A DNA stretch of 64,000 bases from positions 30,446,409 to 30,510,408 of the forward strand of contig OW203770.1 of NCBI GenBank assembly GCA_934045905.1, in the 5' to 3' direction. This DNA comes from Leuctra nigra (Eukaryota > Arthropoda > Insecta > Plecoptera > Leuctridae). Under the pieces are notes generated by a model. The model ran no database searches and was not told the DNA's origin. It saw nothing but the letters and a program-made list of their open reading frames with translations. Each line of letters starts with the position of its first letter. Position 1 is the stretch's first letter. Shown here one piece after another: positions 8,546 through 30,974 of the stretch. Made by a program: the position numbers and the translations under genes.

Positions 8546-8968
8546 GAAATAGCCAGAGTATGGGAATGTCTTTGTAAAATATAAATCCTGATTTAGGTAC
8601 GGAGCAATTTCTTGACTAACTTCTGTGGCCACTTCTTGATTGAAATGAAAACATATATTCACTGCGTCAGAGATTGAGATCAAGTTCTGCGATGTTCAAG
8701 AAGCTGCATAGTGTTCATCAGGCTCAATAGATGGGAGTGTCATAACCGATGAAATCATGGATGCTGGAGTCAGAGACAAGATGAAGAAATGATCTGATCA
8801 ATGTATAACCCAACATTTGTTTATTCACAACATTAAATATTCTAAGTTTAGTGGTACATTTCGGTAGCAAGGGGTTGCTACAAGTTTTCATAGAGTTTTC
8901 ATCTTATTTTGAAGTTTTTATACTTGAATATGCACAAATGTGCTACATTTTCAATAATAATAACCCAT
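8546..8968. other. Non-coding stretch downstream of the LRR gene
   Basis: No gene is supported. The minus-strand open frame at 8459-8683 starts at TTG and runs through the FB-1 terminus, so its last third is transposon sequence. Confidence 0.4.
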
Positions 8969-8974
8969 TTTATT
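8969..8974 (-). terminator. Poly(A) signal AATAAA of the LRR gene
   Basis: AATAAA on the minus strand lies about 55 bases after the LRR stop codon. This is a reasonable position for a short 3' UTR. Transcript evidence is lacking. Confidence 0.45.
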
Positions 8975-9029
8975 TTTCCCGGACTTTGATGTTAGAGGCA
9001 CAGTTATTTAGTCTAAGATGTTAGTAAGA

Positions 9030-10435
9030 TTAATCCCGATTATTGAACCAATGTGCTATTTTGTAATATAACTGCGGGGTCATTCCACGCAACGTCACAA
9101 GTTCATTATAACGATCATTTCCTTCCGGTAGCCCGCCATATCTTCCGCAGTACAAACACGGTTTCGTTCCATTCGGTACTGAGCTCACTCGCCAGTGCCA
9201 CCAGCTGAGCAACTGACTCTTGCGGTCCGCGCTGGTATAGTTACAATTGAACACGTGATCGAACTCGATGGCGTTCTGGGCACTCCATGAGTTCACTGCA
9301 ATCATGTCAGGGTGAAGACACTGCCACGGGTTGGAATCCAAGAGGGCTGAATATCTCTCCTCAACGATTCTCACGGAGTTATTTGGAATTTCTTTGAGGA
9401 TTCTTTGGAATTGACGGAAACTGGCGATATTTATGGAAGTCAATAAATTGTCATTTAAACGAATATGCTTTAGTTTTACTAAATTATCAAAAGTATTTGG
9501 TTCAATCGAACTGATTTTGTTGTTGTCTAATATAAGCACTACCAAGTGCGGAACGTTGCGAAAGAAGTCATTTGGAATATTTTGAATTTTACATTTACTT
9601 AGATTTAACTCCTGAAGTGAAGAAATATTGATATGATAATTCGAAATATTTTCCAAATTATTACCTTCAAGATTAAGTGTAATTAACTTATTGTTAACAA
9701 ATAACAGACTGTCAATATCCTCAAGATTGTTATCGGCTAGAGATAGTTCTTTCAGTTTCGTAAGAGTTTGGAATGCCTTAGAGTTGATTGTCTTTATCGG
9801 ATTGTCATTTAAATTCAGATAAACTAATTCGTCCAAACCATCAAGATATCCTGATTCAATTGTAGTCAGATCATTACTGCCCAAATACAGAGAAAATAAA
9901 CCCAAACCTTGAAATAAATCCTGAACAACAGTATTAAGTTTATTATGGCTCAAATCCAGTTCAGTCAAATTATCGAATACTTTGAGAGAACGGGCGTCTA
10001 TCGTAGCTACATGGTTATAGGAGAGATTTAGAAATTTTATGTTCAACAAACCTGAAAAGCTGTCATAATTTATCCCAGATAAATTATTATTGGATAAATC
10101 CAATTTTTGAAACTTAGAAAGACTCAAAAACGACTCAGGATCGAAACTTAGTAATTGGTTATAACTGAATCTTAGTCCTCTGAGTTCTTCTAGAGTTGTA
10201 ATGTTGAAGTCTTGCGTCTTGTATTGGAAGTGTGGGCTGATGACGACGGCTATTTCGTGAAGCTTGATGTTCTCCGGCAGACCGCGTAGAATGTCGGAGG
10301 TGTTCGCGATGTTCAAGCAGGACACACTGGTGTCGGCGATGTCTTGGAGGTGGTAGTTGCAGACTGGTGTTAGATGACTCCAAGCGACGAGGGGGAGGAG
10401 AAGGATGACACAGAGAGTCCCCAGGACGTGGCCTC
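9030..10435 (-). CDS. Secreted leucine-rich-repeat protein, 3' exon
   Basis: This is a long uninterrupted frame with a classic extracellular LRR layout. It has a hydrophobic signal sequence (TLCVILLLPLVAW), a short N-terminal cysteine region, then about ten or eleven 24-residue repeats of LxxLxLSxNxL type over roughly residues 90-345. A C-terminal cap follows with NPWQC and later cysteines including CLYC. Such proteins act outside the cell or on its surface in binding or recognition; the ligand is unknown. It has no transmembrane segment near the C-terminus. The frame has no ATG at its 5' end: reading upstream it meets TGATTG, with TGA in frame. CTGATTTCAG|GAGG at 10436-10445 is a good splice acceptor, so I start the exon at 10435 (phase 1) and infer that the initiator exon is farther upstream. 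The first 120 coding bases are also the seed of the adjoining tandem array. Confidence 0.8.
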
Positions 10436-13400
10436 CTGAAATCAGGACACTCAATCATGCAAGACACACTGGTGTCGGCGATGTCTTGGAGGTGGTAGTT
10501 GCAGACTGGTGTTAGATGACTCCAAGCGACGAGGGGGAGAAGAAAGATGAGACAGAGAGTCCCCAGGACGTGGCCTCCTGAAATCAGGACACTCAATCAT
10601 GCAAGACACACTGGTGTCGGCGATGTCTTGGAGGTGGCAGTTGCAGACTGGTGTTAGATGACTCCAAGCGACGAGGGGGAGGAGAAGGATGACACAGAGA
10701 GTCCCCAGGACGTTGCCTCCTGAAATCAGGACACTCAATCATGCAGGACACACTGGTGTCGGCGATGTCTTGGAGGTGGTAGTTGCAGACTGGTGTTAGA
10801 TGACTCCAAGCGACGAAGGGGAGGAGAAGGATGACACAGAGAGTCCCCAGGACGTGGCCTTCTGAAATCAGGACACTCAATCATGCAAGACACACTGGTG
10901 TCGGCGATGTCTTGGAGGTGGCAGTTGCAGACTGGTGTTAGATGACTCCAAGCGACGAGGGGGAGGAGAAGGATGACACAGAGAGTCCCCAGGACGTGGC
11001 CTCCTGAAATCAGGACACTCAATCATGCAAGACACACTGGTGTCGGCGATGTCTTGGAGGTGGCAGTTGCAGACTGGTGTTAGATGACTCCAAGCGACGA
11101 GGGGGAGGAGAAGGATGACACAGAGAGTCCCCAGGACGTTGCCTCCTGAAATCAGGACACTCAATCATGCAGGACACACTGGTGTCGGCGATGTCTTGGA
11201 GGTGGTAGTTGCAGACTGGTGTTAGATGACTCCAAGCGACGAGGGGGAGGAGAAGGATGACACAGAGAGTCCCCAGGACGTTGCCTCCTGAAATCAGGAC
11301 ACTCAATCATGCAGGACACACTGGTGTCGGCGATGTCTTGGAGGTGGTAGTTGCAGACTGGTGTTAGATGACTCCAAGCGACGAAGGGGAGGAGAAGGAT
11401 GACACAGAGAGTCCCCAGGACGTTGCCTCCTGAAATCAGGACACTCAATCATGCAGGACACACTGGTGTCGGCGATGTCTTGGAGGTGGCAGTTGCAGAC
11501 TGGTGTTAGATGACTCCAAGCGACGAGGGGGAGAAGAAAGATGAGACAGAGAGTCCCCAGGACGTGGCCTCCTGAAATCAGGACACTCAATCATGCAAGA
11601 CACACTGGTGTCGGCGATGTCTTGGAGGTGGCAGTTGCAGACTGGTGTTAGATGACTCCAAGCGACGAGGGGGAGGAGAAGGATGACACAGAGAGTCCCC
11701 AGGACGTGGCCTCCTGAAATCAGGACACTCAATCATGCAAGACACACTGGTGTCGGCGATGTCTTGGAGGTGGCAGTTGCAGACTGGTGTAAGATGACTC
11801 CAAGCGACGAGGGGGAGAAGAAAGATGACACAGAGAGTCCCCAGGACGTGGCCTCCTGAAATCAGGACACTCAATCATGCAAGACACACTGGTGTCGGCG
11901 ATGTCTTGGAGGTGGCAGTTGCAGACTGGTGTTAGATGACTCCAAGCGACGAGGGGGAGGAGAAGGATGACACAGAGAGTCCCCAGGACGTTGCCTCCTG
12001 AAATCAGGACACTCAATCATGCAGGACACACTGGTGTCGGCGATGTCTTGGAGGTGGTAGTTGCAGACTGGTGTTAGATGACTCCAAGCGACGAGGGGGA
12101 GGAGAAGGATGACACAGAGAGTCCCCAGGACGTTGCCTCCTGAAATCAGGACACTCAATCATGCAGGACACACTGGTGTCGGCGATGTCTTGGAGGTGGT
12201 AGTTGCAGACTGGTGTTAGATGACTCCAAGCGACGAGGGGGAGGAGAAGGATGACACAGAGAGTCCCCAGGACGTTGCCTCCTGAAATCAGGACACTCAA
12301 TCATGCAGGACACACTGGTGTCGGCGATGTCTTGGAGGTGGCAGTTGCAGACTGGTGTTAGATGACTCCAAGCGACGAGGGGGAGAAGAAAGATGAGACA
12401 GAGAGTCCCCAGGACGTGGCCTCCTGAAATCAGGACACTCAATCATGCAAGACACACTGGTGTCGGCGATGTCTTGGAGGTGGCAGTTGCAGACTGGTGT
12501 AAGATGACTCCAAGCGACGAGGGGGAGAAGAAAGATGAGACAGAGAGTCCCCAGGACGTGGCCTCCTGAAATCAGGACACTCAATCATGCAAGACACACT
12601 GGTGTCGGCGATGTCTTGGAGGTGGTAGTTGCAGACTGGTGTTAGATGACTCCAAGCGACGAGGGGGAGAAGAAAGATGAGACAGAGAGTCCCCAGGACG
12701 TGGCCTCCTGAAATCAGGACACTCAATCATGCAAGACACACTGGTGTCGGCGATGTCTTGGAGGTGGCAGTTGCAGACTGGTGTAAGATGACTCCAAGCG
12801 ACGAGGGGGAGGAGAAGGATGACACAGAGAGTCCCCAGGACGTGGCCTTCTGAAATCAGGACACTCCATCATGCAAGACACACTGGTGTCGGCGATGTCT
12901 TGGAGGTGGTAGTTGCAGACTGGCTGGGGCTGACAAGCGATGAGGGGGAGGAGAAGGATGACACAGAGAGTCCCCAGGACGTGGCCTCCTGAAATCAGGA
13001 CACTCAATCATGCAAGACACACTGGTGTCGGCGATGTCTTGGAGGTGGTAGTTGCAGACTGGTGTTAGATGACTCCAAGCGACGAAGGGGAGGAGAAGGA
13101 TGACACAGAGAGTCCCCAGGACGTGGCCTCCTGAAATCAGGACACTCAATCATGCAAGACACACTGGTGTCGGCGATGTCTTGGAGGTGGCAGTTGCAGA
13201 CTGGTGTTAGATGACTCCAAGCGACGAAGGGGAGGAGAAGGATGACACAGAGAGTACCCAGGACGTTGCCTCCTGAAATCAGGACACTCAATCATGCAAG
13301 ACACACTGGTGTCGGCGATGTCTTGGAGGTGGTAGTTGCAGACTGGTGTTAGATGACTCCAAGCGACGAAGGGGAGGAGAAGGATGACACAGAGAGTCCC

Positions 13401-16400
13401 CAGGACGTGGCCTCCTGAAATCAGGACACTCAATCATGCAAGACACACTGGTGTCGGCGATGTCTTGGAGGTGGCAGTTGCAGACTGGTGTTAGATGACT
13501 CCAAGCGACGAGGGGGAGGAGAAGGATGACACAGAGAGTCCCCAGGACGTGGCCTCCTGAAATCAGGACACTCAATCATGCAAGACACACTGGTGTCGGC
13601 GATGTCTTGGAGGTGGCAGTTGCAGACTGGTGTTAGATGACTCCAAGCGACGAGGGGGAGGAGAAGGATGACACAGAGAGTCCCCAGGACGTTGCCTCCT
13701 GAAATCAGGACACTCAATCATGCAGGACACACTGGTGTCGGCGATGTCTTGGAGGTGGTAGTTGCAGACTGGTGTTAGATGACTCCAAGCGACGAGGGGG
13801 AGGAGAAGGATGACACAGAGAGTCCCCAGGACGTTGCCTCCTGAAATCAGGACACTCAATCATGCAGGACACACTGGTGTCGGCGATGTCTTGGAGGTGG
13901 TAGTTGCAGACTGGTGTTAGATGACTCCAAGCGACGAGGGGGAGGAGAAGGATGACACAGAGAGTCCCCAGGACGTTGCCTCCTGAAATCAGGACACTCA
14001 ATCATGCAGGACACACTGGTGTCGGCGATGTCTTGGAGGTGGCAGTTGCAGACTGGTGTTAGATGACTCCAAGCGACGAGGGGGAGAAGAAAGATGAGAC
14101 AGAGAGTCCCCAGGACGTGGCCTCCTGAAATCAGGACACTCAATCATGCAAGACACACTGGTGTCGGCGATGTCTTGGAGGTGGCAGTTGCAGACTGGTG
14201 TTAGATGACTCCAAGCGACGAGGGGGAGGAGAAGGATGACACAGAGAGTCCCCAGGACGTGGCCTCCTGAAATCAGGACACTCAATCATGCAAGACACAC
14301 TGGTGTCGGCGATGTCTTGGAGGTGGCAGTTGCAGACTGGTGTAAGATGACTCCAAGCGACGAGGGGGAGAAGAAAGATGACACAGAGAGTCCCCAGGAC
14401 GTGGCCTCCTGAAATCAGGACACTCAATCATGCAAGACACACTGGTGTCGGCGATGTCTTGGAGGTGGCAGTTGCAGACTGGTGTTAGATGACTCCAAGC
14501 GACGAGGGGGAGGAGAAGGATGACACAGAGAGTCCCCAGGACGTTGCCTCCTGAAATCAGGACACTCAATCATGCAGGACACACTGGTGTCGGCGATGTC
14601 TTGGAGGTGGTAGTTGCAGACTGGTGTTAGATGACTCCAAGCGACGAGGGGGAGGAGAAGGATGACACAGAGAGTCCCCAGGACGTTGCCTCCTGAAATC
14701 AGGACACTCAATCATGCAGGACACACTGGTGTCGGCGATGTCTTGGAGGTGGTAGTTGCAGACTGGTGTTAGATGACTCCAAGCGACGAGGGGGAGGAGA
14801 AGGATGACACAGAGAGTCCCCAGGACGTTGCCTCCTGAAATCAGGACACTCAATCATGCAGGACACACTGGTGTCGGCGATGTCTTGGAGGTGGCAGTTG
14901 CAGACTGGTGTTAGATGACTCCAAGCGACGAGGGGGAGAAGAAAGATGAGACAGAGAGTCCCCAGGACGTGGCCTCCTGAAATCAGGACACTCAATCATG
15001 CAAGACACACTGGTGTCGGCGATGTCTTGGAGGTGGCAGTTGCAGACTGGTGTAAGATGACTCCAAGCGACGAGGGGGAGAAGAAAGATGAGACAGAGAG
15101 TCCCCAGGACGTGGCCTCCTGAAATCAGGACACTCAATCATGCAAGACACACTGGTGTCGGCGATGTCTTGGAGGTGGTAGTTGCAGACTGGTGTTAGAT
15201 GACTCCAAGCGACGAGGGGGAGAAGAAAGATGAGACAGAGAGTCCCCAGGACGTGGCCTCCTGAAATCAGGACACTCAATCATGCAAGACACACTGGTGT
15301 CGGCGATGTCTTGGAGGTGGCAGTTGCAGACTGGTGTAAGATGACTCCAAGCGACGAGGGGGAGGAGAAGGATGACACAGAGAGTCCCCAGGACGTGGCC
15401 TTCTGAAATCAGGACACTCCATCATGCAAGACACACTGGTGTCGGCGATGTCTTGGAGGTGGTAGTTGCAGACTGGCTGGGGCTGACAAGCGATGAGGGG
15501 GAGGAGAAGGATGACACAGAGAGTCCCCAGGACGTGGCCTCCTGAAATCAGGACACTCAATCATGCAAGACACACTGGTGTCGGCGATGTCTTGGAGGTG
15601 GTAGTTGCAGACTGGTGTTAGATGACTCCAAGCGACGAAGGGGAGGAGAAGGATGACACAGAGAGTCCCCAGGACGTGGCCTCCTGAAATCAGGACACTC
15701 AATCATGCAAGACACACTGGTGTCGGCGATGTCTTGGAGGTGGCAGTTGCAGACTGGTGTTAGATGACTCCAAGCGACGAAGGGGAGGAGAAGGATGACA
15801 CAGAGAGTACCCAGGACGTTGCCTCCTGAAATCAGGACACTCAATCATGCAAGACACACTGGTGTCGGCGATGTCTTGGAGGTGGTAGTTGCAGACTGGT
15901 GTTAGATGACTCCAAGCGACGAAGGGGAGGAGAAGGATGACACAGAGAGTCCCCAGGACGTGGCCTCCTGAAATCAGGACACTCAATCATGCAAGACACA
16001 CTGGTGTCGGCGATGTCTTGGAGGTGGCAGTTGCAGACTGGTGTAAGATGACTCCAAGCGACGAGGGGGAGGAGAAGGATGACACAGAGAGTCCCCAGGA
16101 CGTGGCCTTCTGAAATCAGGACACTCCATTATGCAGGACACACTGGTGTCGGCGATGTCTTGGAGGTGGTAGTTGCAGACTGGTGTTAGATGACTCCAAG
16201 CGACGAAGGGGAGGAGAAGGATGACACAGAGAGTACCCAGGACGTGGCCTCCTGAAATCAGGACACTCAATCATGCAAGACACACTGGTGTCGGCGATGT
16301 CTTGGAGGTGGTAGTTGCAGACTGGTGTTAGATGACTCCAAGCGACGAAGGGGAGGAGAAGGATGACACAGAGAGTACCCAGGACGTGGCCTCCTGAAAT

Positions 16401-19400
16401 CAGGACACTCAATCATGCAAGACACACTGGTGTCGGCGATGTCTTGGAGGTGGTAGTTGCAGACTGGTGTTAGATGACTCCAAGCGACGAAGGGGAGGAG
16501 AAGGATGACACAGAGAGTCCCCAGGACGTGGCCTTCTGAAATCAGGACACTCAATCATGCAGGACACACTGGTGTCGGCGATGTCTTGGAGGTGGTAGTT
16601 GCAGACTGGCTGGGGCTGACAAGCGATGAGGGGGAGGAGAAGGATGACACAGAGAGTCCCCAGGACGTGGCCTTCTGAAATCAGGACACTCAATCATGCA
16701 GGACACACTGGTGTCGGCGATGTCTTGGAGGTGGTAGTTGCAGACTGGCTGGGGCTGACAAGCGACGAGGGGGAGAAGAAAGATGACACAGAGAGTCCCC
16801 AGGACGTGGCCTCCTGAAATCAGGACACTCAATCATGCAAGACACACTGGTGTCGGCGATGTCTTGGAGGTGGCAGTTGCAGACTGGTGTTAGATGACTC
16901 CAAGCGACGAGGGGGAGGAGAAGGATGACACAGAGAGTCCCCAGGACGTTGCCTCCTGAAATCAGGACACTCAATCATGCAGGACACACTGGTGTCGGCG
17001 ATGTCTTGGAGGTGGTAGTTGCAGACTGGTGTTAGATGACTCCAAGCGACGAGGGGGAGGAGAAGGATGACACAGAGAGTCCCCAGGACGTTGCCTCCTG
17101 AAATCAGGACACTCAATCATGCAGGACACACTGGTGTCGGCGATGTCTTGGAGGTGGTAGTTGCAGACTGGTGTTAGATGACTCCAAGCGACGAGGGGGA
17201 GGAGAAGGATGACACAGAGAGTCCCCAGGACGTTGCCTCCTGAAATCAGGACACTCAATCATGCAGGACACACTGGTGTCGGCGATGTCTTGGAGGTGGC
17301 AGTTGCAGACTGGTGTTAGATGACTCCAAGCGACGAGGGGGAGAAGAAAGATGAGACAGAGAGTCCCCAGGACGTGGCCTCCTGAAATCAGGACACTCAA
17401 TCATGCAAGACACACTGGTGTCGGCGATGTCTTGGAGGTGGCAGTTGCAGACTGGTGTAAGATGACTCCAAGCGACGAGGGGGAGAAGAAAGATGAGACA
17501 GAGAGTCCCCAGGACGTGGCCTCCTGAAATCAGGACACTCAATCATGCAAGACACACTGGTGTCGGCGATGTCTTGGAGGTGGTAGTTGCAGACTGGTGT
17601 TAGATGACTCCAAGCGACGAGGGGGAGAAGAAAGATGAGACAGAGAGTCCCCAGGACGTGGCCTCCTGAAATCAGGACACTCAATCATGCAAGACACACT
17701 GGTGTCGGCGATGTCTTGGAGGTGGCAGTTGCAGACTGGTGTAAGATGACTCCAAGCGACGAGGGGGAGGAGAAGGATGACACAGAGAGTCCCCAGGACG
17801 TGGCCTTCTGAAATCAGGACACTCCATCATGCAAGACACACTGGTGTCGGCGATGTCTTGGAGGTGGTAGTTGCAGACTGGCTGGGGCTGACAAGCGATG
17901 AGGGGGAGGAGAAGGATGACACAGAGAGTCCCCAGGACGTGGCCTCCTGAAATCAGGACACTCAATCATGCAAGACACACTGGTGTCGGCGATGTCTTGG
18001 AGGTGGTAGTTGCAGACTGGTGTTAGATGACTCCAAGCGACGAAGGGGAGGAGAAGGATGACACAGAGAGTCCCCAGGACGTGGCCTCCTGAAATCAGGA
18101 CACTCAATCATGCAAGACACACTGGTGTCGGCGATGTCTTGGAGGTGGCAGTTGCAGACTGGTGTAAGATGACTCCAAGCGACGAGGGGGAGGAGAAGGA
18201 TGACACAGAGAGTCCCCAGGACGTGGCCTTCTGAAATCAGGACACTCCATTATGCAGGACACACTGGTGTCGGCGATGTCTTGGAGGTGGTAGTTGCAGA
18301 CTGGTGTTAGATGACTCCAAGCGACGAAGGGGAGGAGAAGGATGACACAGAGAGTACCCAGGACGTGGCCTCCTGAAATCAGGACACTCAATCATGCAAG
18401 ACACACTGGTGTCGGCGATGTCTTGGAGGTGGTAGTTGCAGACTGGTGTTAGATGACTCCAAGCGACGAAGGGGAGGAGAAGGATGACACAGAGAGTACC
18501 CAGGACGTGGCCTCCTGAAATCAGGACACTCAATCATGCAAGACACACTGGTGTCGGCGATGTCTTGGAGGTGGTAGTTGCAGACTGGTGTTAGATGACT
18601 CCAAGCGACGAAGGGGAGGAGAAGGATGACACAGAGAGTCCCCAGGACGTGGCCTTCTGAAATCAGGACACTCAATCATGCAGGACACACTGGTGTCGGC
18701 GATGTCTTGGAGGTGGTAGTTGCAGACTGGCTGGGGCTGACAAGCGATGAGGGGGAGGAGAAGGATGACACAGAGAGTCCCCAGGACGTGGCCTTCTGAA
18801 ATCAGGACACTCAATCATGCAGGACACACTGGTGTCGGCGATGTCTTGGAGGTGGTAGTTGCAGACTGGCTGGGGCTGACAAGCGATGAGGGGGAGAAGA
18901 AGGATGACACAGAGAGTCCCCAGGACGTGGCCTTCTGAAATCAGGACACTCAATCATGCAAGACACACTGGTGTCGGCGATGTCTTGGAGGTGGCAGTTG
19001 CAGACTGGTGTAAGATGACTCCAAGCGACGAGGGGGAGGAGAAGGATGACACAGAGAGTCCCCAGGACGTGGCCTTCTGAAATCAGGACACTCCATCATG
19101 CAAGACACACTGGTGTCGGCGATGTCTTGGAGGTGGTAGTTGCAGACTGGCTGGGGCTGACAAGCGATGAGGGGGAGGAGAAGGATGACACAGAGAGTCC
19201 CCAGGACGTGGCCTCCTGAAATCAGGACACTCAATCATGCAAGACACACTGGTGTCGGCGATGTCTTGGAGGTGGTAGTTGCAGACTGGTGTTAGATGAC
19301 TCCAAGCGACGAAGGGGAGGAGAAGGATGACACAGAGAGTCCCCAGGACGTGGCCTCCTGAAATCAGGACACTCAATCATGCAAGACACACTGGTGTCGG

Positions 19401-22400
19401 CGATGTCTTGGAGGTGGCAGTTGCAGACTGGTGTTAGATGACTCCAAGCGACGAAGGGGAGGAGAAGGATGACACAGAGAGTACCCAGGACGTTGCCTCC
19501 TGAAATCAGGACACTCAATCATGCAAGACACACTGGTGTCGGCGATGTCTTGGAGGTGGTAGTTGCAGACTGGTGTTAGATGACTCCAAGCGACGAAGGG
19601 GAGGAGAAGGATGACACAGAGAGTCCCCAGGACGTGGCCTCCTGAAATCAGGACACTCAATCATGCAAGACACACTGGTGTCGGCGATGTCTTGGAGGTG
19701 GCAGTTGCAGACTGGTGTAAGATGACTCCAAGCGACGAGGGGGAGGAGAAGGATGACACAGAGAGTCCCCAGGACGTGGCCTTCTGAAATCAGGACACTC
19801 CATTATGCAGGACACACTGGTGTCGGCGATGTCTTGGAGGTGGTAGTTGCAGACTGGTGTTAGATGACTCCAAGCGACGAAGGGGAGGAGAAGGATGACA
19901 CAGAGAGTACCCAGGACGTGGCCTCCTGAAATCAGGACACTCAATCATGCAAGACACACTGGTGTCGGCGATGTCTTGGAGGTGGTAGTTGCAGACTGGT
20001 GTTAGATGACTCCAAGCGACGAAGGGGAGGAGAAGGATGACACAGAGAGTACCCAGGACGTGGCCTCCTGAAATCAGGACACTCAATCATGCAAGACACA
20101 CTGGTGTCGGCGATGTCTTGGAGGTGGTAGTTGCAGACTGGTGTTAGATGACTCCAAGCGACGAAGGGGAGGAGAAGGATGACACAGAGAGTACCCAGGA
20201 CGTTGCCTCCTGAAATCAGGACACTCAATCATGCAAGACACACTGGTGTCGGCGATGTCTTGGAGGTGGCAGTTGCAGACTGGTGTTAGATGACTCCAAG
20301 CGACGAAGGGGAGGAGAAGGATGACACAGAGAGTACCCAGGACGTGGCCTCCTGAAATCAGGACACTCAATCATGCAAGACACACTGGTGTCGGCGATGT
20401 CTTGGAGGTGGTAGTTGCAGACTGGTGTTAGATGACTCCAAGCGACGAAGGGGAGGAGAAGGATGACACAGAGAGTACCCAGGACGTTGCCTCCTGAAAT
20501 CAGGACACTCAATCATGCAAGACACACTGGTGTCGGCGATGTCTTGGAGGTGGTAGTTGCAGACTGGTGTTAGATGACTCCAAGCGACGAAGGGGAGGAG
20601 AAGGATGACACAGAGAGTACCCAGGACGTGGCCTCCTGAAATCAGGACACTCAATCATGCAAGACACACTGGTGTCGGCGATGTCTTGGAGGTGGTAGTT
20701 GCAGACTGGTGTTAGATGACTCCAAGCGACGAAGGGGAGGAGAAGGATGACACAGAGAGTACCCAGGACGTTGCCTCCTGAAATCAGGACACTCAATCAT
20801 GCAAGACACACTGGTGTCGGCGATGTCTTGGAGGTGGCAGTTGCAGACTGGTGTAAGATGACTCCAAGCGACGAGGGGGAGGAGAAGGATGACACAGAGA
20901 GTCCCCAGGACGTGGCCTTCTGAAATCAGGACACTCCATTATGCAGGACACACTGGTGTCGGCGATGTCTTGGAGGTGGTAGTTGCAGACTGGTGTTAGA
21001 TGACTCCAAGCGACGAAGGGGAGGAGAAGGATGACACAGAGAGTCCCCAGGACGTGGCCTTCTGAAATCAGGACACTCAATCATGCAGGACACACTGGTG
21101 TCGGCGATGTCTTGGAGGTGGTAGTTGCAGACTGGCTGGGGCTGACAAGCGATGAGGGGGAGGAGAAGGATGACACAGAGAGTCCCCAGGACGTGGCCTT
21201 CTGAAATCAGGACACTCAATCATGCAGGACACACTGGTGTCGGCGATGTCTTGGAGGTGGTAGTTGCAGACTGGCTGGGGCTGACAAGCGATGAGGGGGA
21301 GAAGAAGGATGACACAGAGAGTCCCCAGGACGTGGCCTTCTGAAATCAGGACACTCAATCATGCAAGACACACTGGTGTCGGCGATGTCTTGGAGGTGGT
21401 AGTTACAGACTGGCTGGGGCTGACAAGCGATAAGGGGGAGGAGAAGGATGACACAGAGAGTCCCCAGGACGTGGCCTTCTGAAATCAGGACACTCAATCA
21501 TGCAGGACACACTGGTGTCGGCGATGTCTTGGAGGTGGTAGTTGCAGACTGGCTGGGGCTGACAAGCGATGAGGGGGAGGAAAAGGATGACACAGAGAGT
21601 CCCCAGGACGTGGCCTTCTGAAATCAGGACACTCAATCATGCAAGACACACTGGTGTCGGCGATGTCTTGGAGGTGGTAGTTGCAGACTGGCTGGGGCTG
21701 ACAAGCGATGAGGGGGAGGAAAAGGATGACACAGAGAGTCCCCAGGACGTGGCCTTCTGAAATCAGGACACTCAATCATGCAAGACACACTGGTGTCGGC
21801 GATGTCTTGGAGGTGGTAGTTGCAGACTGGCTGGGGCTGACAAGCGATGAGGGGGAGGAGAAGGATGACACAGAGAGTCCCCAGGACGTGGCCTCCTGAA
21901 ATCAGGACACTCCATCATGCAGGACACACTGGTGTCGGCGATGTCTTGGAGGTGGTAGTTGCAGACTGGTGTTAGATGACTCCAAGCGACGAGGGGGAGA
22001 AGTAGGATGACACAGAGAGTCCCCAGGACGTTGCCTCCTGAAATCAGGACACTCAATCATGCAAGACACACTGGTGTCGGCGATGTCTTGGAGGTGGCAG
22101 TTGCAGACTGGTGTTAGCTGACTCCAAGCGACGAGGGGGAGAAGAAGGATGACACAGAGAGTCCCCAGGACGTGGGCTCCTGAAATCAGGACACTCAATC
22201 ATGCAGGACACACTGGTGTCGGCGATGTCTTGGAGGTGGTAGTTGCAGACTGGCTGGGGCTGACAAGCGATGAGGGGGAGAAGAAGGATGACACAGAGAG
22301 TCCCCAGGACGTGGCCTTCTGAAATCAGGACACTCAATCATGCAAGACACACTGGTGTCGGCGATGTCTTGGAGGTGGTAGTTGCAGACTGGCTGGGGCT

Positions 22401-23180
22401 GACAAGCGATGAGGGGGAGGAGAAGGATGACACAGAGAGTCCCCAGGACGTGGCCTTCTGAAATCAGGACACTCAATCATGCAGGACACACTGGTGTCGG
22501 CGATGTCTTGGAGGTGGTAGTTGCAGACTGGCTGGGGCTGACAAGCGATGAGGGGGAGGAGAAGGATGACACAGAGAGTCCCCAGGACGTGGCCTTCTGA
22601 AATCAGGACACTCAATCATGCAAGACACACTGGTGTCGGCGATGTCTTGGAGGTGGTAGTTGCAGACTGGCTGGGGCTGACAAGCGATGAGGGGGAGGAG
22701 AAGGATGACACAGAGAGTCCCCAGGACGTGGCCTCCTGAAATCAGGACACTCCATCATGCAGGACACACTGGTGTCGGCGATGTCTTGGAGGTGGTAGTT
22801 GCAGACTGGTGTTAGATGACTCCAAGCGACGAGGGGGAGAAGTAGGATGACACAGAGAGTCCCCAGGACGTTGCCTCCTGAAATCAGGACACTCAATCAT
22901 GCAAGACACACTGGTGTCGGCGATGTCTTGGAGGTGGCAGTTGCAGACTGGTGTTAGCTGACTCCAAGCGACGAGGGGGAGAAGAAGGATGACACAGAGA
23001 GTCCCCAGGACGTGGGCTCCTGAAATCAGGACACTCAATCATGCAGGACACACTGGTGTCGGCGATGTCTTGGAGGTGGTAGTTGCAGACTGGCTGGGGC
23101 TGACAATCTATGAGGGGGAGGAGAAGGATGACACAGAGAGTCCCCAGGACGTGGCCTCCTGAAATCAGGACACTCAATCT
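10313..23180 (-). repeat. Tandem array derived from the LRR gene's 5' coding segment (90 extra units)
   Basis: Counting unit starts from 10454 to 23177 gives 12,723 bases. That equals 71 units of 142 bp plus 19 units of 139 bp; the gene carries one more copy at 10313-10454. Each unit holds the acceptor CTGATTTCAG and codes for the gene's signal peptide and N-terminal cysteine region, ending in TGTCTTGC or TGTCCTGC before the next unit. The 139-bp type replaces the AWSHLTP coding with ACQPQP. Units are not multiples of three (142), so reading through one enters the next in another frame and stops there. No good GT donor is visible in a unit, so units cannot easily act as internal exons. Higher-order periods are visible at 2,553, 2,405 and 840 bp. 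I interpret the array as lying in the gene's 5' intron or replacing its 5' end. Confidence 0.85.
10436..10450 (-). promoter_or_regulatory. Predicted splice acceptor of the LRR exon
   Basis: On the minus strand, TGTCCTGATTTCAG precedes GAGGCC. It offers a CTGAT branch-like site and a short pyrimidine run before CAG. It is needed because the LRR frame is closed by TGA at 10455-10457 and has no ATG. The same acceptor is repeated in every unit of the upstream array. Confidence 0.5.
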
Positions 23181-23800
23181 AGTAAGCGCGAGCGTTTTTG
23201 CTGCTATTTGCAGGTACTTTCGTGGATACGATTGGAGACGAAATGGGTTGACGAAATTATTTTAAATTTTTTTCATGATAAGATAAAATACAAACTAAGG
23301 GTTATCCTTTGCTGTATTTTATAATTTTTTGATTCGTTAATTGAAGAGCTCCCCAGAACAAGGCTGAATGTGACACATTTTTCAAAACGCGTTTTTTTGC
23401 TTTAAAAGGATGAATAGCAATATATCCGTAAGATGGCGCAATCTAAGTTCAAAATATTGAACCTATCCCCTCTAAAAGAAGAATTGAAATCACTGGTTAA
23501 CATTGGTGGCTTATCTGGTGTTGGTTGGTTTTTAGTCGTTCCTGAACAATTTAAGAAATGTCACATTCAGCCTTATTCCGGGGAGCTCTTCAATTATAGT
23601 AATAATTAGTTGATTTTTGATGAAAATGTGGATATGAAAATTTATTTAAAAAATGTACCAAGTGATAATGCTAAGTTTGTCATTCATCTATTCATGATTA
23701 AAATTTGAGATCAAATGGTTCATGGGTTTGGTCTCCAATCGTATTCTAAATTTCATAGTTTTGGACGGTTTTGTTGAATAACCGGCGCCTAATTAACAAG
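23181..23800. repeat. Palindromic GCGCGAGCG-type repeat abutting the array
   Basis: AAGCGCGAGCG...TACGATTGGAGA at 23186 matches 32159-32215. The right half, TTTGAGATCAAATGGTT to AACCGGCGCCTAATTAAC, matches 32413-32420 plus 40488-40575. The two halves are inverted arms (GGGTTATCC near 23297; the other arm GTACCAAGTGATAA near 23653). The array ends exactly where this repeat begins. A smaller element (23345-23597) sits in its centre. Confidence 0.55.
23345..23597. mobile_element. Small TIR element (about 250 bp)
   Basis: The inverted ends are GAAGAGCTCCCCAGAACAAG near 23345 and the complement ending GGGGAGCTCTTC near 23593. The match extends through the CTGAATGTGACA block. AATT flanks both sides and may be the duplicated target. 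The interior is non-coding. Confidence 0.5.
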
Positions 23801-24030
23801 GCACGAAACAAAAATTAAAGTGCAACTAATATACAATCAGACTGATCATGTGAACATCCTATCAAAGTTACACCCACTAATGAAGCAAGTTTTCTCTCTC
23901 AATTTGCTCTAACATTTGAACAATTTATGCTTGTGTTTGACAAATTCAACTTTAGGACAATAGATACAAATAAGACAAGACAAGCCTTAATTATTGTTAT
24001 GCCAATGATAACATTTGAGTGGGTATCTCA

Positions 24031-24365
24031 TAGAAAGTCCTTTACTATAATACGCTTAAAAGAGAAGAACGTCGTCCCCGTAGCAACGTGGCTGAAAATT
24101 TGGTTTTCTATACAAATCTTGAATTTTCCACCGATCAAGTTGAAACTCGCCAGTAATGTATACAATTACGTAACTTGATTTATAGTAACACTTTTGCGAT
24201 ATTCTGTTCAGTATTTACCGAGTTATTCGTGAAAAACATCGCTTTTTCTGATGTCTTAATTTTAAACGTCAATTTCAATTGTGCGGTGAAAATAAATTTT
24301 AGTAGGCAGTGAAACTATGTAACTTGCAAAAATCGACCTGAACAATATTTGGCCATTGAATCATC
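24031..24365 (+). repeat. Dispersed repeat, second copy inverted at 62754-63065
   Basis: The block from CTTTACTATAATACGCTTAA through CGTAGCAACGTGGCTGAAAA to ACAATATTTGGCC is repeated in the opposite orientation near the right end of the window with modest divergence. No coding frame is preserved. The class is unknown. Confidence 0.55.
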
Positions 24366-24480
24366 TGTGAGCGAAAGGAAATAAAAATTAACTCACTGCC
24401 ACTAAGATATGCGCTATGAGAAGAGTACAAATCCATGACCTATCTATGCCCGACGTCGCGCTACCGATACGCGTTTCCTA

Positions 24481-24808
24481 GGAAACAAGGATTTTCTTCT
24501 TGGAGGTGATTTCAGGCAAACTTTACCTGTATTACAAGGCGGCCCCCGAACTACGTACATACCTACCATAGTGGAACATACCATTAATTGCCGTCTAAGG
24601 CGAAACTTCAATTCGCTTCGCCTTAACGTCAACATGCGAGTGAGGGAAGGAGAAGATAATTTTATGCAATTCCTCCTCAATGTTGGAAATGGAGAAGTTC
24701 TTAACAATTATCACCTCGATAAAAAAAAAAATTGAAGTTTGATGCTGTTTATGGAGAGGCAATATCTGTCGATCAGATTGCTACCGTCATAGACTATGCA
24801 ATTCTATT
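24481..24808 (+). pseudogene. Helitron-type PIF1 helicase fragment, frameshifted
   Basis: Read on the plus strand, the sequence codes for LLGGDFRQTLPVLQGG, then LRRNFNSLRLNVNMRV and GNGEVL. This is the order seen in the helicase domain of Helitron Rep/Hel proteins (related to PIF1). The first frame ends at TGA (24733-24735) after an A-run. The match resumes one frame over with FDAVYGEAISVDQIATVIDYAI. Nothing recognisable as the N-terminal helicase or Rep domain flanks it. It is a dead fragment, but shows that autonomous Helitrons existed in this genome and could have mobilised Hel-A. Confidence 0.75.
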
Positions 24809-24879
24809 GCATCTATTGCATTTCTTAGTTCGTAGTCCGCAATTTCCAGTCAGTCTTCATAGAAGTCATTGATGGAGGA

Positions 24880-25495
24880 CTACAAGGAAAATTGGCACAA
24901 TCGACCGATGCAATTTTTACGCAAACATTGTGTATCCTGAAATTCTGTTATAGTTTTCTCTATACTCCAAACATCATGAAAATTATTCAACATTTTCCTT
25001 CATTTCCATAATTTCACCAATGAAAAGTGAACAACTCTCTTCTAACTTCACTTGCACCTCCTACTTTCCACCACCATCCCAATTGAATAAAAATATAAAC
25101 ATATATAAATTTGAAGTTTCATTCAAACAATTTGTATAACTATTGCACAAATTATTGCCTTTGTCATGTGTGGCATGACGGGTCCCTCTAGTAGATAGAT
25201 ATTTTACAGCTACAACAAAAGAGAACAAAAGAGGCCTAGTGTACCTACTTCAAATAAGGTACACTCGGCAAAACAAACTATAGATGGCAATATATTATGC
25301 ATTCTTGTTGTCTCACTCTATAGTATAGGTGGGAACTCATTTCAATGATCGTAACAATTGCATGATTATTACGCTAACAAATTTAAATTTGTTCGGTGAC
25401 AAGTTTTTCTTTTTCCAAGTGTATTTAATGCAAAGTAAAATGTTGAAATGGTCAGATGACCTTAGTTTATCATTTGTACTAGTACACTATTTGTA
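24880..25495. other. Non-coding stretch
   Basis: AT-rich sequence with no supported gene or repeat boundary. Confidence 0.4.
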
Positions 25496-25517
25496 GCTAT
25501 GCATAAGGATGGAGAAA

Positions 25518-25758
25518 ATATCGATATATCGATATATATCGATATCAAAAAAATATCGAAATATCGATACCTGAATATATTGAATATCGATATATCGAAA
25601 TATTGAAATATTGAAATATCGAAATATTGAAATATCGAAATATCGAAATATTGAAATATCGATATATTGAAATATTGAAATATTGAAATATCGATATATT
25701 GAAATATTGAAATATTGAAATATCGAAATATCGAAATATTGAAATATCGATATATCGA
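25518..25758. repeat. Left arm of ATATCGAT-type satellite inverted repeat
   Basis: Tandem short words (GAAATATTGAAATATCGATAT and variants, about 9-10 bp period) form the inverted partner of 26015-26240. The arms could fold into a very long AT-rich hairpin. Confidence 0.7.
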
Positions 25759-26014
25759 AGCGTTACCGTATGATACAACTATATTCTTAATTGAAGTTTA
25801 TACCTACAATGGCAAAATAATTCATATTTGCAGTGCAGCGTTTATCAGATTTTAGGACAATTTCTCAGATTATTCACATTTCTTTCTTATCTGGCCGGTG
25901 ACTCTATATTTTGGAACGGCTGTGTTATTTCTATTTAAATTTTCCTTTCAATTTCCTATCAGTTTTAGGAGCAATTTAAGGCATTTATGCGATATATCAA
26001 TATTTCCATACCTA

Positions 26015-26240
26015 CATCGAAATATAATATTGTCATATATCAATATTTCGATATTTCAATATTTCAATATTTCGATATTTCGATATTTCAATATTTCAAT
26101 ATATCGATATTTCAATATTTCAATATATCGATACTTCAATATATCGGTACTTCAATATATCGATATTTCGATATTTCAATATTTCAATATATCGATATAT
26201 CGCGATATCGATATATCGATATATATCGATATATAAATGA
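26015..26240. repeat. Right arm of ATATCGAT-type satellite inverted repeat
   Basis: Complement-oriented copy of the left arm, built from ATATTTCGATATTTCAATAT words. It is separated from the left arm by about 255 bases of non-repetitive sequence. Confidence 0.7.
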
Positions 26241-26265
26241 TATCGATAGTCGATATCAAAATCCA

Positions 26266-26433
26266 GGACCCTTACCTAATATCGCCAGATTTCAGTAGCC
26301 CCGTGTTACTGTAGCACAACTTTTGTTTTAAAAGTTTAAGCCATAAGAGCTAACATTGTCGCCTTGGCAACTAGCCGATCGTGCTACTGTAACACGGTGC
26401 TACTGAAATATTGGCGATATTAGGTAAGGGTCC
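26266..26433. mobile_element. 168-bp foldback module (GGACCCTTACC ends)
   Basis: GGACCCTTACCTAATATCGC at the left pairs with GCGATATTAGGTAAGGGTCC at the right, and the arms continue through CAGTAGC and GTGTTACTGTAGCAC for about 55 bases. It may be an insertion or a structural part of the surrounding hAT element; no target duplication is clear. Confidence 0.55.
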
Positions 26434-26719
26434 AGGTTCGCTCCATCCCTAGCTATGCACATCATTTTACCTCAATAAAAAATGACTGGTTATCAGCGCA
26501 TTACACAGATCGTAATCAAATAATTTTTCACTCTTACCTCGGACTAAGCAGATCATTCAGCAGTCAGCAGTCGTCGAGAGAGGTTGTGTGTCCAGTTGCT
26601 CCTCGCAACTGGTTTGTTTTCCTGTTAGTGGGAATTTTCCTGTTAGTGTTAGTGGAATCTTGTATATCTGCGTCTCAAGTGATTTTAACTACATTAAATT
26701 ACGTATTTAATTTTTAATT

Positions 26720-27922
26720 ATGGCAGGGAAAGGGAATCAGACAAGTGCCATGAAACGCCCGACTAGAAGTGAAAAGTTGGCCGCGGTTGATCGCGTTAAT
26801 GACGGCGAGTCTAAGGTGTCGGTGGCGCGGGACCTCGGTGTCTCAGAATATGCCGTCAGAGATTGGTGTAAAAAGGCAGCGGAGTCGACTACTGGAAAGT
26901 CTGCGAGCATCTTATCAGCAGAAGAAGATGGCAGCAATCCGTGTAAAAGAGCATCTCTATCGTGTGAGCTTTGTGAAGTGAAAGACGTAGAAATTGCAAA
27001 GTTAGTGAGTGATCTAAACGAAGTTAAAATGCAGCTTACTGATATTGTAAGTAGGCTAGTTAATGTAGAGTTGGTGGCTTCAAAGTGGGAAAAGAGTAAA
27101 GAACTCCAGAAGAAGATTGCACAACCATGTGAAAGCCAAGGGACACAGGGCGTGTCTGCAATGACTCATGTCACAAGCACGGAGAACTCGGTACAGCATC
27201 ACAATACGTCACCGGTTAGAGAGCTGATAGAGGCGTTCGAGGAGGTCGAGTCCCGGTCAAGGGTGGCTAATAATTCTAATGTTATTATTAGACCAGATAC
27301 CTTGATTCTAAGAGAGAAGGAGTGTGAGGTGTTAAATGATGGGAGGGGGTTGCCTTTAGAGACTGTCATCAGCGGGAAATGTACAAATGATAGCATCTTA
27401 AATGGCAAAGAGGTTGTAATCATTGGGGACTCTATGGTGAGATTAGCTGGTCGAGTTAGAGCAGATATCACAGACTGTGTGGTGGCATATCCTGGGATGA
27501 GATGGCAGAATGTAGCGCAAGCGGTTGAGCGAGATGTGATCCAGGGTAAGAAAAGTCATCCAAAAACATTAATTTTACACTTTGGGACAAATAATATTAA
27601 AAGTGCTAAAAATCTGGATTATATCACAGGTGAAGCATATGATTCTATTACAAATGTAAAGAAAATATTGCCTGGTACAAAGATAGTTGTAAGTGGAATT
27701 TTGAATAGAAGAGATGTGTCTGCTAAAAAAATTAAATTACTAAATGAGAATTTATTGTGGGTCTGTGACGCACTGCATGTAAATTTTATCAATGCAAGTA
27801 AATGGTTGACTGATTCAGATTTGTGCAGAGATGGATTGCATCTCAATGTTAAAGGGGCTAGGGTGTTTGGTAAGTTTTTACACTATGCGGCTAATACAAA
27901 TTGTGGACTTCAGGGAAACTAG
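26720..27922 (+). CDS. LINE ORF1: HTH plus SGNH esterase protein
   Basis: A 400-residue protein starting at ATG. Residues about 13-50 look like a small helix-turn-helix of the pipsqueak/transposase type (EKLAAVDRVNDGESKVSVAR, then YAVRDWC). Residues about 85-135 are likely coiled coil, preceded by a CELC motif. Residues about 230-390 form an SGNH/GDSL hydrolase: GDS at 236-238 (nucleophile Ser), GTNN at 289-292 and DGLHLN at 371-376 (catalytic Asp and His). ORF1 proteins of CR1-type LINEs often carry such an esterase and bind the element RNA. The helix-turn-helix at the N-terminus is less usual. The stop overlaps the open ORF2 frame. Confidence 0.8.
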   Translation: MAGKGNQTSAMKRPTRSEKLAAVDRVNDGESKVSVARDLGVSEYAVRDWCKKAAESTTGKSASILSAEEDGSNPCKRASLSCELCEVKDVEIAKLVSDLNEVKMQLTDIVSRLVNVELVASKWEKSKELQKKIAQPCESQGTQGVSAMTHVTSTENSVQHHNTSPVRELIEAFEEVESRSRVANNSNVIIRPDTLILREKECEVLNDGRGLPLETVISGKCTNDSILNGKEVVIIGDSMVRLAGRVRADITDCVVAYPGMRWQNVAQAVERDVIQGKKSHPKTLILHFGTNNIKSAKNLDYITGEAYDSITNVKKILPGTKIVVSGILNRRDVSAKKIKLLNENLLWVCDALHVNFINASKWLTDSDLCRDGLHLNVKGARVFGKFLHYAANTNCGLQGN

Positions 27923-30870
27923 GAAGAGCTTCAGAGGTGTTGGCTAAGAATGTTATTTCTAATAACGTTGTTATGCATGTTAATATTCAGTCCTTAAGAA
28001 ATAAGTTTGAATTATTAGAAGCATTTTTAAAAGCAAATCCGTCTGATGTTGTCTGTTTATCGGAGCATTGGCTGGAAGCGGGTGAAATAAACAGTGCAAC
28101 TATTCCTGGTTACACTTTGATTAATTGGTATTGCAGAGATAATTATAAACATGGTGGTGTCATGATATATGTCAAGTCAGAATTAAATTCAAAATTATTT
28201 ACAGCAGACATACATTTAAATGAGGATAAGCTTTTTGAATATACATGCATTGAGCTAAGTGCACCGTACGGAAACTGCATTGTTGTGTGTATATACAGAT
28301 GTCCATCTGGTAACTTTTTGTTATTTGTTGATAAACTTACACTACTGTTGAATAAGCTGCAAATGACAGGAAAAAATATTATAATAAGTGGTGATTTTAA
28401 TGTTAATTTTAGCTCACATTGTAATCAGGCCATTACCCTTGTAGATTTATTTTCATCATATGGATTAATTAAGCAAGTACATGATTATACAAGAATTACC
28501 ATGAGATCTGAAACGTGTATAGATAATATTTTCACCAATATGTCAAATGCCACTGCCGTGTCACTTGATGCTGGTTTGTCTGACCATTGTGTTCAGCTGT
28601 TGAGAGTAAAGGCATGTGCATCGACTGATAGCAGTCAGGAATTTGTATACAAAAGATCATTCAGTGATGAACAAGTAAATACTTTCAAGTTGTTGATGAG
28701 TGGTGCCAACTGGGACAGCATTTATGTCGAAGAAGGTGTTAATAATATGTTTAATGAGTTCATGAGGATTTTTAATCAGTATTTTGATGAAGCGTTTCCA
28801 AAGAGAAGAGTTAGAATAAAAAGACAAAATAAAAAAGTTAATTCGTGGTTCACTAAAGAATTAAAACAGATGTCTGAAGAAGTAAAGAGGTTGTACGTAA
28901 TTTCAAAAAGAAATTTGGTGCACAAGGCACGATATTTAAAGCTGAAGAAAGATTACGCATTGGCCATTAAAAATAGTAAACGTAATATGAACATAACATG
29001 TATAAATACGGCAAAAAACAAGTCAAAGGCTGCGTGGAATTTAATAAAGAGTAATATGAATGATTCAAGTTTGTGCAGCTCAAGAAGTGGGGATATTAAG
29101 CTGGTTCATGAGGGGAGGCACATTAACTCAGCTAAAGAAGTTGCTAATGTATTTAATGACTATTTTAAAAATGCGGCAGATATTGTTTTGAAGAAGAGCA
29201 AGGAGTCGAACCAAGGAATTAGCAACAGTTGTGGTAGTTACATCCAAAATATAAGCAGTACCTGTAGCGGTAACAATTTTTTCTTGTATCCTGTTAGTAT
29301 GAAGGATGTCTATGATGTAATAGATAAAGTAACGCATAAAAAATCCGCAGGATTTGATGAAATTCCTTGTCATATTGTTAAGTATGTTGCAGGGTACGTG
29401 GCAGAGCCTTTAGTTTTCATTATAAATGAATCATTCTCGTCAGGTGTGTTTCCTGAGAATTTGAAAAAAGCAGTAATTAGTCCTTTATTCAAAAAAGGTA
29501 AAAAAGACGCGGTAGAAAACTACAGACCGATAGCCTTATTATCAGTATTTTCTAAAATTTTTGAGAAGGCATTTTATAACAAGTTAATACTATTTTTAGA
29601 GAAATTTGACCTGCTATCAGATTGTCAACATGGATTTCGTAAAGGAAGATCTACTACTACTGCCATAAACAATTTGGTTAATAAAATATATAATGCATTG
29701 GATAATAAAAGTCCAGCCGTTGGAATATTTTACGATTTTTCGAAAGCCTTCGATATGGTTAATCATGACAAATTAATGAATAAGTTAAAACACTTTGGTA
29801 TTGTGGGAGTCGCCAGCAGTTGGATTAAATCTTATTTAACGGAAAGAAAACAGGTGATAAAACTAGTGACTTCTTCAGGTGTTAATTTTTCTGATGAAAC
29901 TACTGTTAATATAGGTGTTCCGCAAGGTTCGACAATTGCTCCTCTAATATTCATTTTATTTACTGGCGATTTGACACATTGTATTCAAAAAGGAAATTTA
30001 ACATTATTTGCTGACGATACTTCTCACTTCTTGAGCAATGATCTTGATGATAGGTGCATGGAAGTACAGCAATTGGCTAGTTGGGTTGTTAACAACGACT
30101 TGTGTTTGAATGAATCTAAGACTGTTATGCTTCAATTTTCTCAAAGTACTAATAACAGTAATTTGTCCAGTCCATTAATTTACTTAAATGGGAGAAGTAT
30201 ATTGGTACAAAATTCAACAAAGTATTTGGGCATTACATTAGATAGTAAATTAAATTGGAAAGAACACATTTTTAATGTAGGTAATAAAGTGTCTTCCGGT
30301 TGCTTTTTGATCAAAAGAATAATGCAAATTTGTAATTTTGAGGCAGCTAAGTCCGTTTACTATTCCTATATTCATTCATTTATTTCTTATGGAATTGTGT
30401 TGTGGGGTCATTCCACACACACAAAAAGACTTTTTATTTTACAGAAGAGAGCTGTTCGGTTTCTGGCCAGTGCTAGTTACGATCCGTGTACTGCTGGTGT
30501 TTACTTCAAAGATTCATGTAGACCACTTTTTATAAGTTTTAAAATTCTCACTCTTCCTTGCATTTATATTTATAATACTATTATGTTCGTGATAGAAAAT
30601 AAGCATTTAACAATTGATAACAAGGAGGTACATAATCACAATACCAGGTTAAATTATAATTTAAGAGTATGTTCAATGAACTCTAAATCTAAGTTTAATA
30701 ATAAGTGTCCAGTCGCAGTTGGTGTCAGTCTTTTCAATAAATTGAATTCATCATTAAAATCTAAAATTGACTATGAGAGATTGTATATTTTTAAATCATC
30801 ACTGAAAGAATTTTTAATTATTAATTGTTTTTATTCAATTGACGAGTTTCTCAACGCAAAATGTTTATAG
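27901..30870 (+). CDS. LINE ORF2: endonuclease-reverse transcriptase
   Basis: The open frame begins inside ORF1 (overlap 22 bases), but its first ATG is at 27973, 51 bases after the ORF1 stop. That ATG directly precedes the endonuclease HVNIQSL motif, so translation probably starts there by reinitiation. An apurinic-type endonuclease spans about residues 24-235: SEHWL, SGDFNVNF (Asp165, Asn167), SDHC (Asp228, His229). The reverse transcriptase spans about 475-760 with YRPIALLS, HGFRKGRST, YDFSKAFDMV, GVPQGSTIAPL and the catalytic FADDT (Asp705, Asp706). All key residues are present. Residue numbers count from 27901. The C-terminus has no RNase H. Confidence 0.85.
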   Translation: MWTSGKLGRASEVLAKNVISNNVVMHVNIQSLRNKFELLEAFLKANPSDVVCLSEHWLEAGEINSATIPGYTLINWYCRDNYKHGGVMIYVKSELNSKLFTADIHLNEDKLFEYTCIELSAPYGNCIVVCIYRCPSGNFLLFVDKLTLLLNKLQMTGKNIIISGDFNVNFSSHCNQAITLVDLFSSYGLIKQVHDYTRITMRSETCIDNIFTNMSNATAVSLDAGLSDHCVQLLRVKACASTDSSQEFVYKRSFSDEQVNTFKLLMSGANWDSIYVEEGVNNMFNEFMRIFNQYFDEAFPKRRVRIKRQNKKVNSWFTKELKQMSEEVKRLYVISKRNLVHKARYLKLKKDYALAIKNSKRNMNITCINTAKNKSKAAWNLIKSNMNDSSLCSSRSGDIKLVHEGRHINSAKEVANVFNDYFKNAADIVLKKSKESNQGISNSCGSYIQNISSTCSGNNFFLYPVSMKDVYDVIDKVTHKKSAGFDEIPCHIVKYVAGYVAEPLVFIINESFSSGVFPENLKKAVISPLFKKGKKDAVENYRPIALLSVFSKIFEKAFYNKLILFLEKFDLLSDCQHGFRKGRSTTTAINNLVNKIYNALDNKSPAVGIFYDFSKAFDMVNHDKLMNKLKHFGIVGVASSWIKSYLTERKQVIKLVTSSGVNFSDETTVNIGVPQGSTIAPLIFILFTGDLTHCIQKGNLTLFADDTSHFLSNDLDDRCMEVQQLASWVVNNDLCLNESKTVMLQFSQSTNNSNLSSPLIYLNGRSILVQNSTKYLGITLDSKLNWKEHIFNVGNKVSSGCFLIKRIMQICNFEAAKSVYYSYIHSFISYGIVLWGHSTHTKRLFILQKRAVRFLASASYDPCTAGVYFKDSCRPLFISFKILTLPCIYIYNTIMFVIENKHLTIDNKEVHNHNTRLNYNLRVCSMNSKSKFNNKCPVAVGVSLFNKLNSSLKSKIDYERLYIFKSSLKEFLIINCFYSIDEFLNAKCL

Positions 30871-30974
30871 TTATTATGATTTCTTGTACAAGCCTGAATT
30901 TAATTTGTTTGCTTTACCTAATTGTTATGTAATTGACGTGTCCAATATCATTTGTATATGATCAAATAGGGATT

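Follow-up and report, generated by a model that had tools for sequence, protein, structure and literature searches.

Tandem repeats that lie across the boundary between an intron and an exon have been described in amphioxus, in globin genes and in Adh3, where they were termed mirages and are unstable in length. As far as the available part of that report goes, the boundaries of the repeat clusters escape homogenization, the results of reverse transcription-PCR (RT-PCR) are consistent with regular splicing, and somatic instability has been reported for Adh3 (PMC3087553). Here we describe a tandem array that adjoins a gene for a leucine-rich repeat (LRR) protein, designated X, in a window of 64,000 nucleotides from the insect Leuctra nigra (contig C9, positions 30446409-30510408, of an assembly of 536 Mb in 144 contigs; the right end of the window is ~275 kb short of the end of the contig). 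Our preferred reading, to which we assign a probability of roughly 0.78, is that the array represents a mirage minisatellite spanning an intron-exon boundary of the LRR gene, that it is a neutral by-product, and that the last of its acceptors would be the one used. The features on which this reading is based are as follows, with a stroke in residue strings marking the splice position.

9030-10435, minus strand: exon 2 of the LRR gene, in which a phase-1 acceptor is followed by 467 whole codons and a stop codon; its first part is the terminal unit of the array
10313-23179, minus strand: tandem array of 91 units of 142 or 139 bp, from Tandem Repeats Finder (TRF) and a motif count
23180-26537, minus strand: remainder of intron 1, from exon 1 to the array, with pieces of dispersed repeats at ~23338-23596 and ~23633-23908
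26538-26556, minus strand: predicted coding exon 1, ATGATCTGCTTAGTCCGAG (MICLVR/G), from comparison; the donor is GTAAGA on C9 and GTAAGT on contig C11

The array and the LRR gene

TRF reports a single array at 10313-23179 with 91.0 copies and 96% matches, and the motif count gives 91 acceptor-bearing units, spaced by 142 bp (n = 71) or 139 bp (n = 19), in the orientation of the LRR gene. The array thus consists, on the minus strand, of 90 copies and one that is fused to the open LRR exon, with a mean pairwise identity between units of 94.8%, and the original prediction of some 90 highly similar copies in tandem and in the orientation of the gene holds. Each unit comprises, in order, the 3' end of an intron (TTGAGTGTCCTGATTTCAG) with its AG acceptor, the 5' part of exon 2, which begins in frame with GHVLGTLCVILLLPLVAWSHLTPVCNYHLQDIADTSVSC and encodes the signal peptide and the first cysteines, and the sequence ATGA, which leads to the next unit. 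As had also been predicted, every unit carries the acceptor and signal-peptide coding sequence: the CAG acceptor is kept in 91 of 91 units, and the signal-peptide part is free of stop codons in all of them, the shortest product being 70 codons. The terminal unit continues into 467 open codons with the LRRs. The derivation of the unit from the 5' end of the main coding exon of the neighboring LRR gene, acceptor included, was therefore correctly recognized, but the repeated piece is not the first coding segment of the gene; it combines the 5' part of exon 2 with ~20 nt of the intron, coding exon 1 being predicted farther upstream. With an acceptor in all units, a predicted exon 1 upstream, and a terminal unit that reads into the exon, the unit spans a predicted intron-exon boundary. 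It does not amount to a complete exon such as would be repeated in a tandem exon array, since its best donor-like site scores 4.8 bits and the frame shifts at each unit.

Inspection of the open reading frames (ORFs) showed that the LRR frame has no ATG ahead of the LRRs, and the position of the acceptor and its phase (1) are the same in three LRR relatives on C11, designated A, B, and D. A scan of 140 kb of C11 on both strands, for an ATG followed by at most 10 residues and a phase-1 donor of at least 12 bits, returned four rows, which represent three sites; these are upstream of X, A, and D, and every row ends in R/G. For X the exon is MICLVR/G, which is found in both the C9 and the C11 copies. 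Another candidate, MIIENNRRGSS/G (12.4 bits, C11:9543306), was set aside as exon 1 of X because C9 does not share the region in which it lies. The N terminus that results from joining exon 1 to exon 2 is hydrophobic, with a mean hydropathy of 2.8 over 12 residues, as in signal peptides. Provided that this exon 1, a prediction from comparison, is correct, the array would lie in intron 1, because the exon is upstream of it. Intron 1 also contains two arrays of 8-bp repeats, at 25516-25759 and 26026-26256 (AAATATCG and AATATTTC), that are mutually complementary in type.

Two protein searches, in which scoring was limited to the candidates with the most words in common (7981 and 7997), gave general LRR proteins only and no close orthologue among the best 120 of 1262 and of 301 matches. 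Many of the named hits, but not all, are arthropod proteins. The LRR family is large, with 97 genome-wide matches to the protein encoded in the window.

The duplicated locus and the history of the array

A large part of the window has a counterpart on C11.

3106-40628, no strand: stretch of the window matched by C11:9547469-9566587, ~99% identical outside the insertions and the array; the C11 array has 22 units

A search of the whole genome with the unit, in which the best candidates were scored and very common words were skipped, gave 22 matches besides the window, all of them in the C11 duplicate. The term satellite, in the sense of a dispersed satellite, is accordingly not borne out, because the unit was found in this search at two loci only, with 91 copies on C9 and 22 on C11. 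The two arrays have 25 minor alleles in common, ~10 of which fall in a single block characteristic of the 139-bp type. One event separates the first units of the two arrays, and two events separate the second units. The shared minor alleles and the near identity of the first units show that the array already had multiple units before the locus was duplicated. The last units of the two arrays are four events apart, which is no closer than for inner units. Many of the inner C9 units are block copies. Private alleles number five on C9, four of them present in 4-15 units, and 14 on C11, each in one or two units. There are 31 distinct sequences among the 91 units of C9 and 20 among the 22 of C11, whereas units with an identical partner number 80 of 91 and 4 of 22, respectively. 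The longest identical runs on C9 are of 14, 9, 9, and 8 units, and C11 has none of two or more; the C9 array has therefore grown by block duplication.

These observations are consistent with the following sequence of events. In a gene for a secreted LRR protein, a tandem duplication that covered the 3' splice site together with the 5' part of exon 2 would have been amplified within intron 1; the locus, with an array already of multiple units, would have been duplicated between C9 and C11; and unequal exchange of multi-unit blocks would have led to 91 units on one contig and 22 on the other. In splicing, the spliceosome would pass over the upstream acceptors and join exon 1 to the final acceptor, since no other copy leads into a complete exon (exon definition), so that the array would normally be intron. 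This explanation does not require the array to have a function. C11 was considered as the ancestral copy, since A, B, and D are located there, but this was dropped because an A-type gene is also present on C9. This relative (C9:30441141-30442256) is ~4 kb to the left of the start of the window and is oriented toward the LRR gene, which is also the case on C11; because the arrangement is the same on both contigs, the duplication may extend beyond the aligned part.

The gene next to the array had been described as live, which is doubtful for the copy in the window because a long interspersed nuclear element (LINE) lies antisense at its start codon.

26557-31003, plus strand: LINE, antisense at the start codon and absent from C11; ends approximate, with a target-site duplication of CATT or ATT
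31004-32420, minus strand: putative promoter and 5' untranslated region, collinear with C11, with the LINE between it and the start codon

Both ORFs of the LINE are open, ORF1 (26720-27922) with matches to GDSL-esterase and CENP-B-like proteins and ORF2 (27901-30870) with matches to endonuclease and reverse transcriptase, and the corresponding site on C11 is uninterrupted. The 5' side retains a copy of the ATG (ten codons, then a stop). The window copy of the LRR gene is probably disconnected from its promoter, and silenced or rewired by the LINE, and the working copy would be that on C11. The LRR exons of the two copies have eight replacement and seven silent differences (P = 0.08 for a silent excess). 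A second insertion that is absent from C11 occupies 32421-40483 of the window and has ORFs at 33742-35472 and 35589-38993; it is read, without a family search, as a gypsy-like element in which these are gag and pol.

Similar arrays elsewhere in the genome

A seeding of repeats by the 5' end of a neighboring gene had been thought unusual, but five further acceptor-side arrays were found in the genome.

C2:5000630-5003342: zf-AD exon array, 121-bp unit (Pfam 1.9e-8, above the cut-off)
C4:14998337-15002830: kringle C-half array, 145-bp unit (Pfam 7.5e-12, above the cut-off)
C4:15005153-15007956: kringle N-half array, 128-bp unit, neighbor of the C-half array (Pfam 1.1e-4, below the curated cut-off)
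C8:24001353-24003071, minus strand: glypican exon array, 21 units of 80 bp (Pfam 5.8e-8, above the cut-off)
C10:23081752-23083387: zf-AD exon array, 12 copies of 136 bp (best unit 28.2 bits, cut-off 28)

In the C2 and C8 arrays and in both kringle-half arrays of C4, the unit consists of the end of an intron and the start of an exon, and only the last unit continues into the exon; for the kringle N-half array, this continuation was judged from 44 further bases. The AG is kept at 186 of 186 sites that a motif search recovered from five arrays, a figure that is helped by the preference of the search for AG-bearing sites. The C10 array has the same anatomy and terminates in the run-on exon, NFKQCCLLADQTLQERNNAK/gtctgg.

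The frequency of such arrays was estimated from a control sample of 40 2-kb stretches at hand-chosen round coordinates on 12 contigs (C1-C11 and C13). Arrays with a period of at least 80 and at least 6 copies were hit by 4 of the 40 points (95% interval, 2.8-23.7%) and acceptor-side arrays by 3 (interval, 1.6-20.4%). The four arrays that were hit are those listed for C2 and C8, the kringle C-half array of C4, and an unclassified 153-bp array of C4 (7996001-8001569). A survey of zf-AD gave 64 matches, which manual grouping reduced to 54 loci (11 matches on C10 form one locus), and at least two of the 54 have acceptor-side arrays; this is a lower bound because units made of half an exon seldom score, only the last copy of the C2 array having done so. 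For kringle (PF00051), 27 of 34 matches are inside the 145-bp array, and the other seven are elsewhere and form no regular rows, so arrays are not present in every gene. The occurrence of acceptor-side arrays in several unrelated genes appears to be a characteristic of this genome. A broader proposition is that mirage arrays are pervasive, with tens of copies of an acceptor and exon start in introns of hundreds to thousands of genes, making up several percent of the genome, and that the spliceosome routinely passes dozens of near-identical acceptors and picks the last; here we consider the chances evenly balanced.

Three other arrays were encountered.

C4:7996001-8001569: unclassified array, at least 36 copies of 153 bp, with donor-like and acceptor-like sites
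C4:14996001-14997888: array that repeats an apparent kringle exon with acceptor and donor, 168-bp unit, left edge not covered (Pfam 0.0013, below the cut-off)
C11:9583196-9617957: array of ~240 copies of 145 bp between LRR relatives B and D, with no visible intron

In the stretch that starts at C4:7996001, which includes the 153-bp array, an ORF at 8966-9739 has an acetyltransferase-like reading (Pfam 0.13, below the cut-off). At C4:14996001-15008000, three arrays that encode kringles, with units of 168, 145, and 128 bp, follow one another within 12 kb. On the minus strand, the 145-bp unit of C11 can be read as the C terminus of a LINE ORF, for which Pfam gave no supported family, and its last copy continues to a stop codon.

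Alternative readings and known systems

Several observations weigh against a neutral mirage from which the last acceptor is spliced. (i) For relative B, no exon 1 was found in the scanned 140 kb of C11. (ii) The AG is lost in 1 of the 22 units of C11, which has CAA. (iii) Of the 91 units of C9, unit 1 alone is preceded, by consensus, by a branch-point-like motif at a distance suitable for use; this is the sequence CTTAC, starting 28 nt before the acceptor of unit 1, and it would favor the first acceptor. (iv) Between C9 and C11, mismatches number 20/3348 in the intron, 15/1341 in the LRR exon, and 10/918 in the 3' flank; the exon is as divergent as the flank and more so than the intron, so that function of the protein is putative. 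(v) Assembly may have had a share in the exact blocks of C9. (vi) The whole-exon kringle array of C4 and the LINE-like array of C11, in which no intron is visible, depart from the acceptor-side anatomy.

The alternative that survives best, although we regard it as unlikely, is a splice switch in which use of the first acceptor is the default and yields a short secreted peptide (the signal peptide and ~60 residues), the LRR protein being made only if the whole array is skipped. In its favor, CTTAC is present before unit 1 only, and the products expected from the upstream acceptors agree with it: the 90 on C9 would give 70-138 codons and then a stop, the 21 on C11 would give 71-138 codons (71 from the first), and the LRR protein would be obtained from the last unit only, which is unit 91 on C9. 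In the same scan, relatives A and D have branch-point-like motifs starting at -43 and -24. The argument from the branch point is nevertheless weak because such motifs are frequent by chance and because the branch site is, in the available text of a study of Drosophila introns, of little importance (PMC2891723). Outside the block that distinguishes the 139- and 142-bp types, 9 of 22 coding substitutions among the units are silent, with 8.3 expected (P = 0.45), and the absence of stops in the signal-peptide frame compares with an expectation of 0.5. The units thus show no coding constraint, an argument against a coding role under selection. The fourfold difference in copy number between the duplicates also argues against a switch, and an equivalent arrangement at the exons for glypican and zf-AD would lead to truncated forms of these proteins.

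It is quite improbable that the array is an expansion made by the assembler, which would have duplicated exact multi-unit blocks of a much shorter true array. Such an origin would fit the C9 blocks of 14, 9, 9, and 8 units that are exact copies, and another array of the assembly, that on C2, has a 337-bp gap that coincides with a run of 200 N. However, a separate array on C11 has 22 units of which 20 are distinct, the C9 array has 31 distinct unit types and alleles that are missing from C11, and arrays of 12-37 copies are present in other genes. A true satellite or a source of small RNA that controls the LRR family, for which the 97 family matches would be possible targets, is very hard to credit because the whole-genome search found the unit at two loci only and because the unit covers the signal-peptide segment, which is highly divergent in relatives A, B, and D.

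The choice of an acceptor is usually explained by the branch point, the nearest AG, and exon definition. In the arrays described here, 12 to 91 similar acceptors are present per intron, in unrelated genes and with different units, and only the last leads into a full exon. They offer a natural test of the way in which splicing disregards false signals, for which the C9 and C11 loci provide one gene in versions of 91 and 22 units. If their frequency is as high as that among the 40 sampled points, they represent a large and little-described route by which genes make tandem repeats.

Classical satellite DNA likewise forms head-to-tail arrays that are homogenized in blocks, but the LRR unit is confined, within the whole-genome unit search, to a single gene and the duplicate of that gene. 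Tandem arrays of alternative exons also consist of tandem copies of exon sequence inside one gene; the LRR units differ in being incomplete exons, because none has a strong donor (4.8 bits at best) and each of them shifts the frame. The closest likeness is to the amphioxus mirages (BflGb6, BflGb9, and Adh3), which, in the available part of the report, are also tandem repeats over an intron-exon boundary with variable copy number; the BflGb6 units, of 150-160 bp, contain the 3' end of an intron and the 5' part of exon 2, as the LRR unit does (PMC3087553). The BflGb6 haplotypes there have six and three units as compared with 91 and 22 at the LRR loci, and the amphioxus mirages are from a chordate and are supported by RT-PCR, whereas the LRR array is from an arthropod and is described from genome sequence (PMC3087553). 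Human genes in segmental duplications similarly have internal repeats at exon-intron boundaries that differ in number between recent paralogues, but these are on average four units of 30 bp, and some create new introns, according to the accessible text (PMC2812944). In Drosophila, also an insect, exon sequence with a splice motif has been duplicated inside genes; the cases in the available portion of that study are old single duplications, inferred from intron positions, that gave new introns and no multi-copy arrays (PMC2891723). A literature search of titles and abstract openings found no multi-copy boundary arrays in insects, and the main text of a psyllid genome paper contains neither "tandem repeat" nor "satellite" (PMC12203342). 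The original interpretation of the array as a decoy or satellite special to a single live gene is not upheld. The LRR array would be one mirage among several in this genome, and perhaps among very many, and it differs from the mirages described previously in copy number and in apparent abundance.

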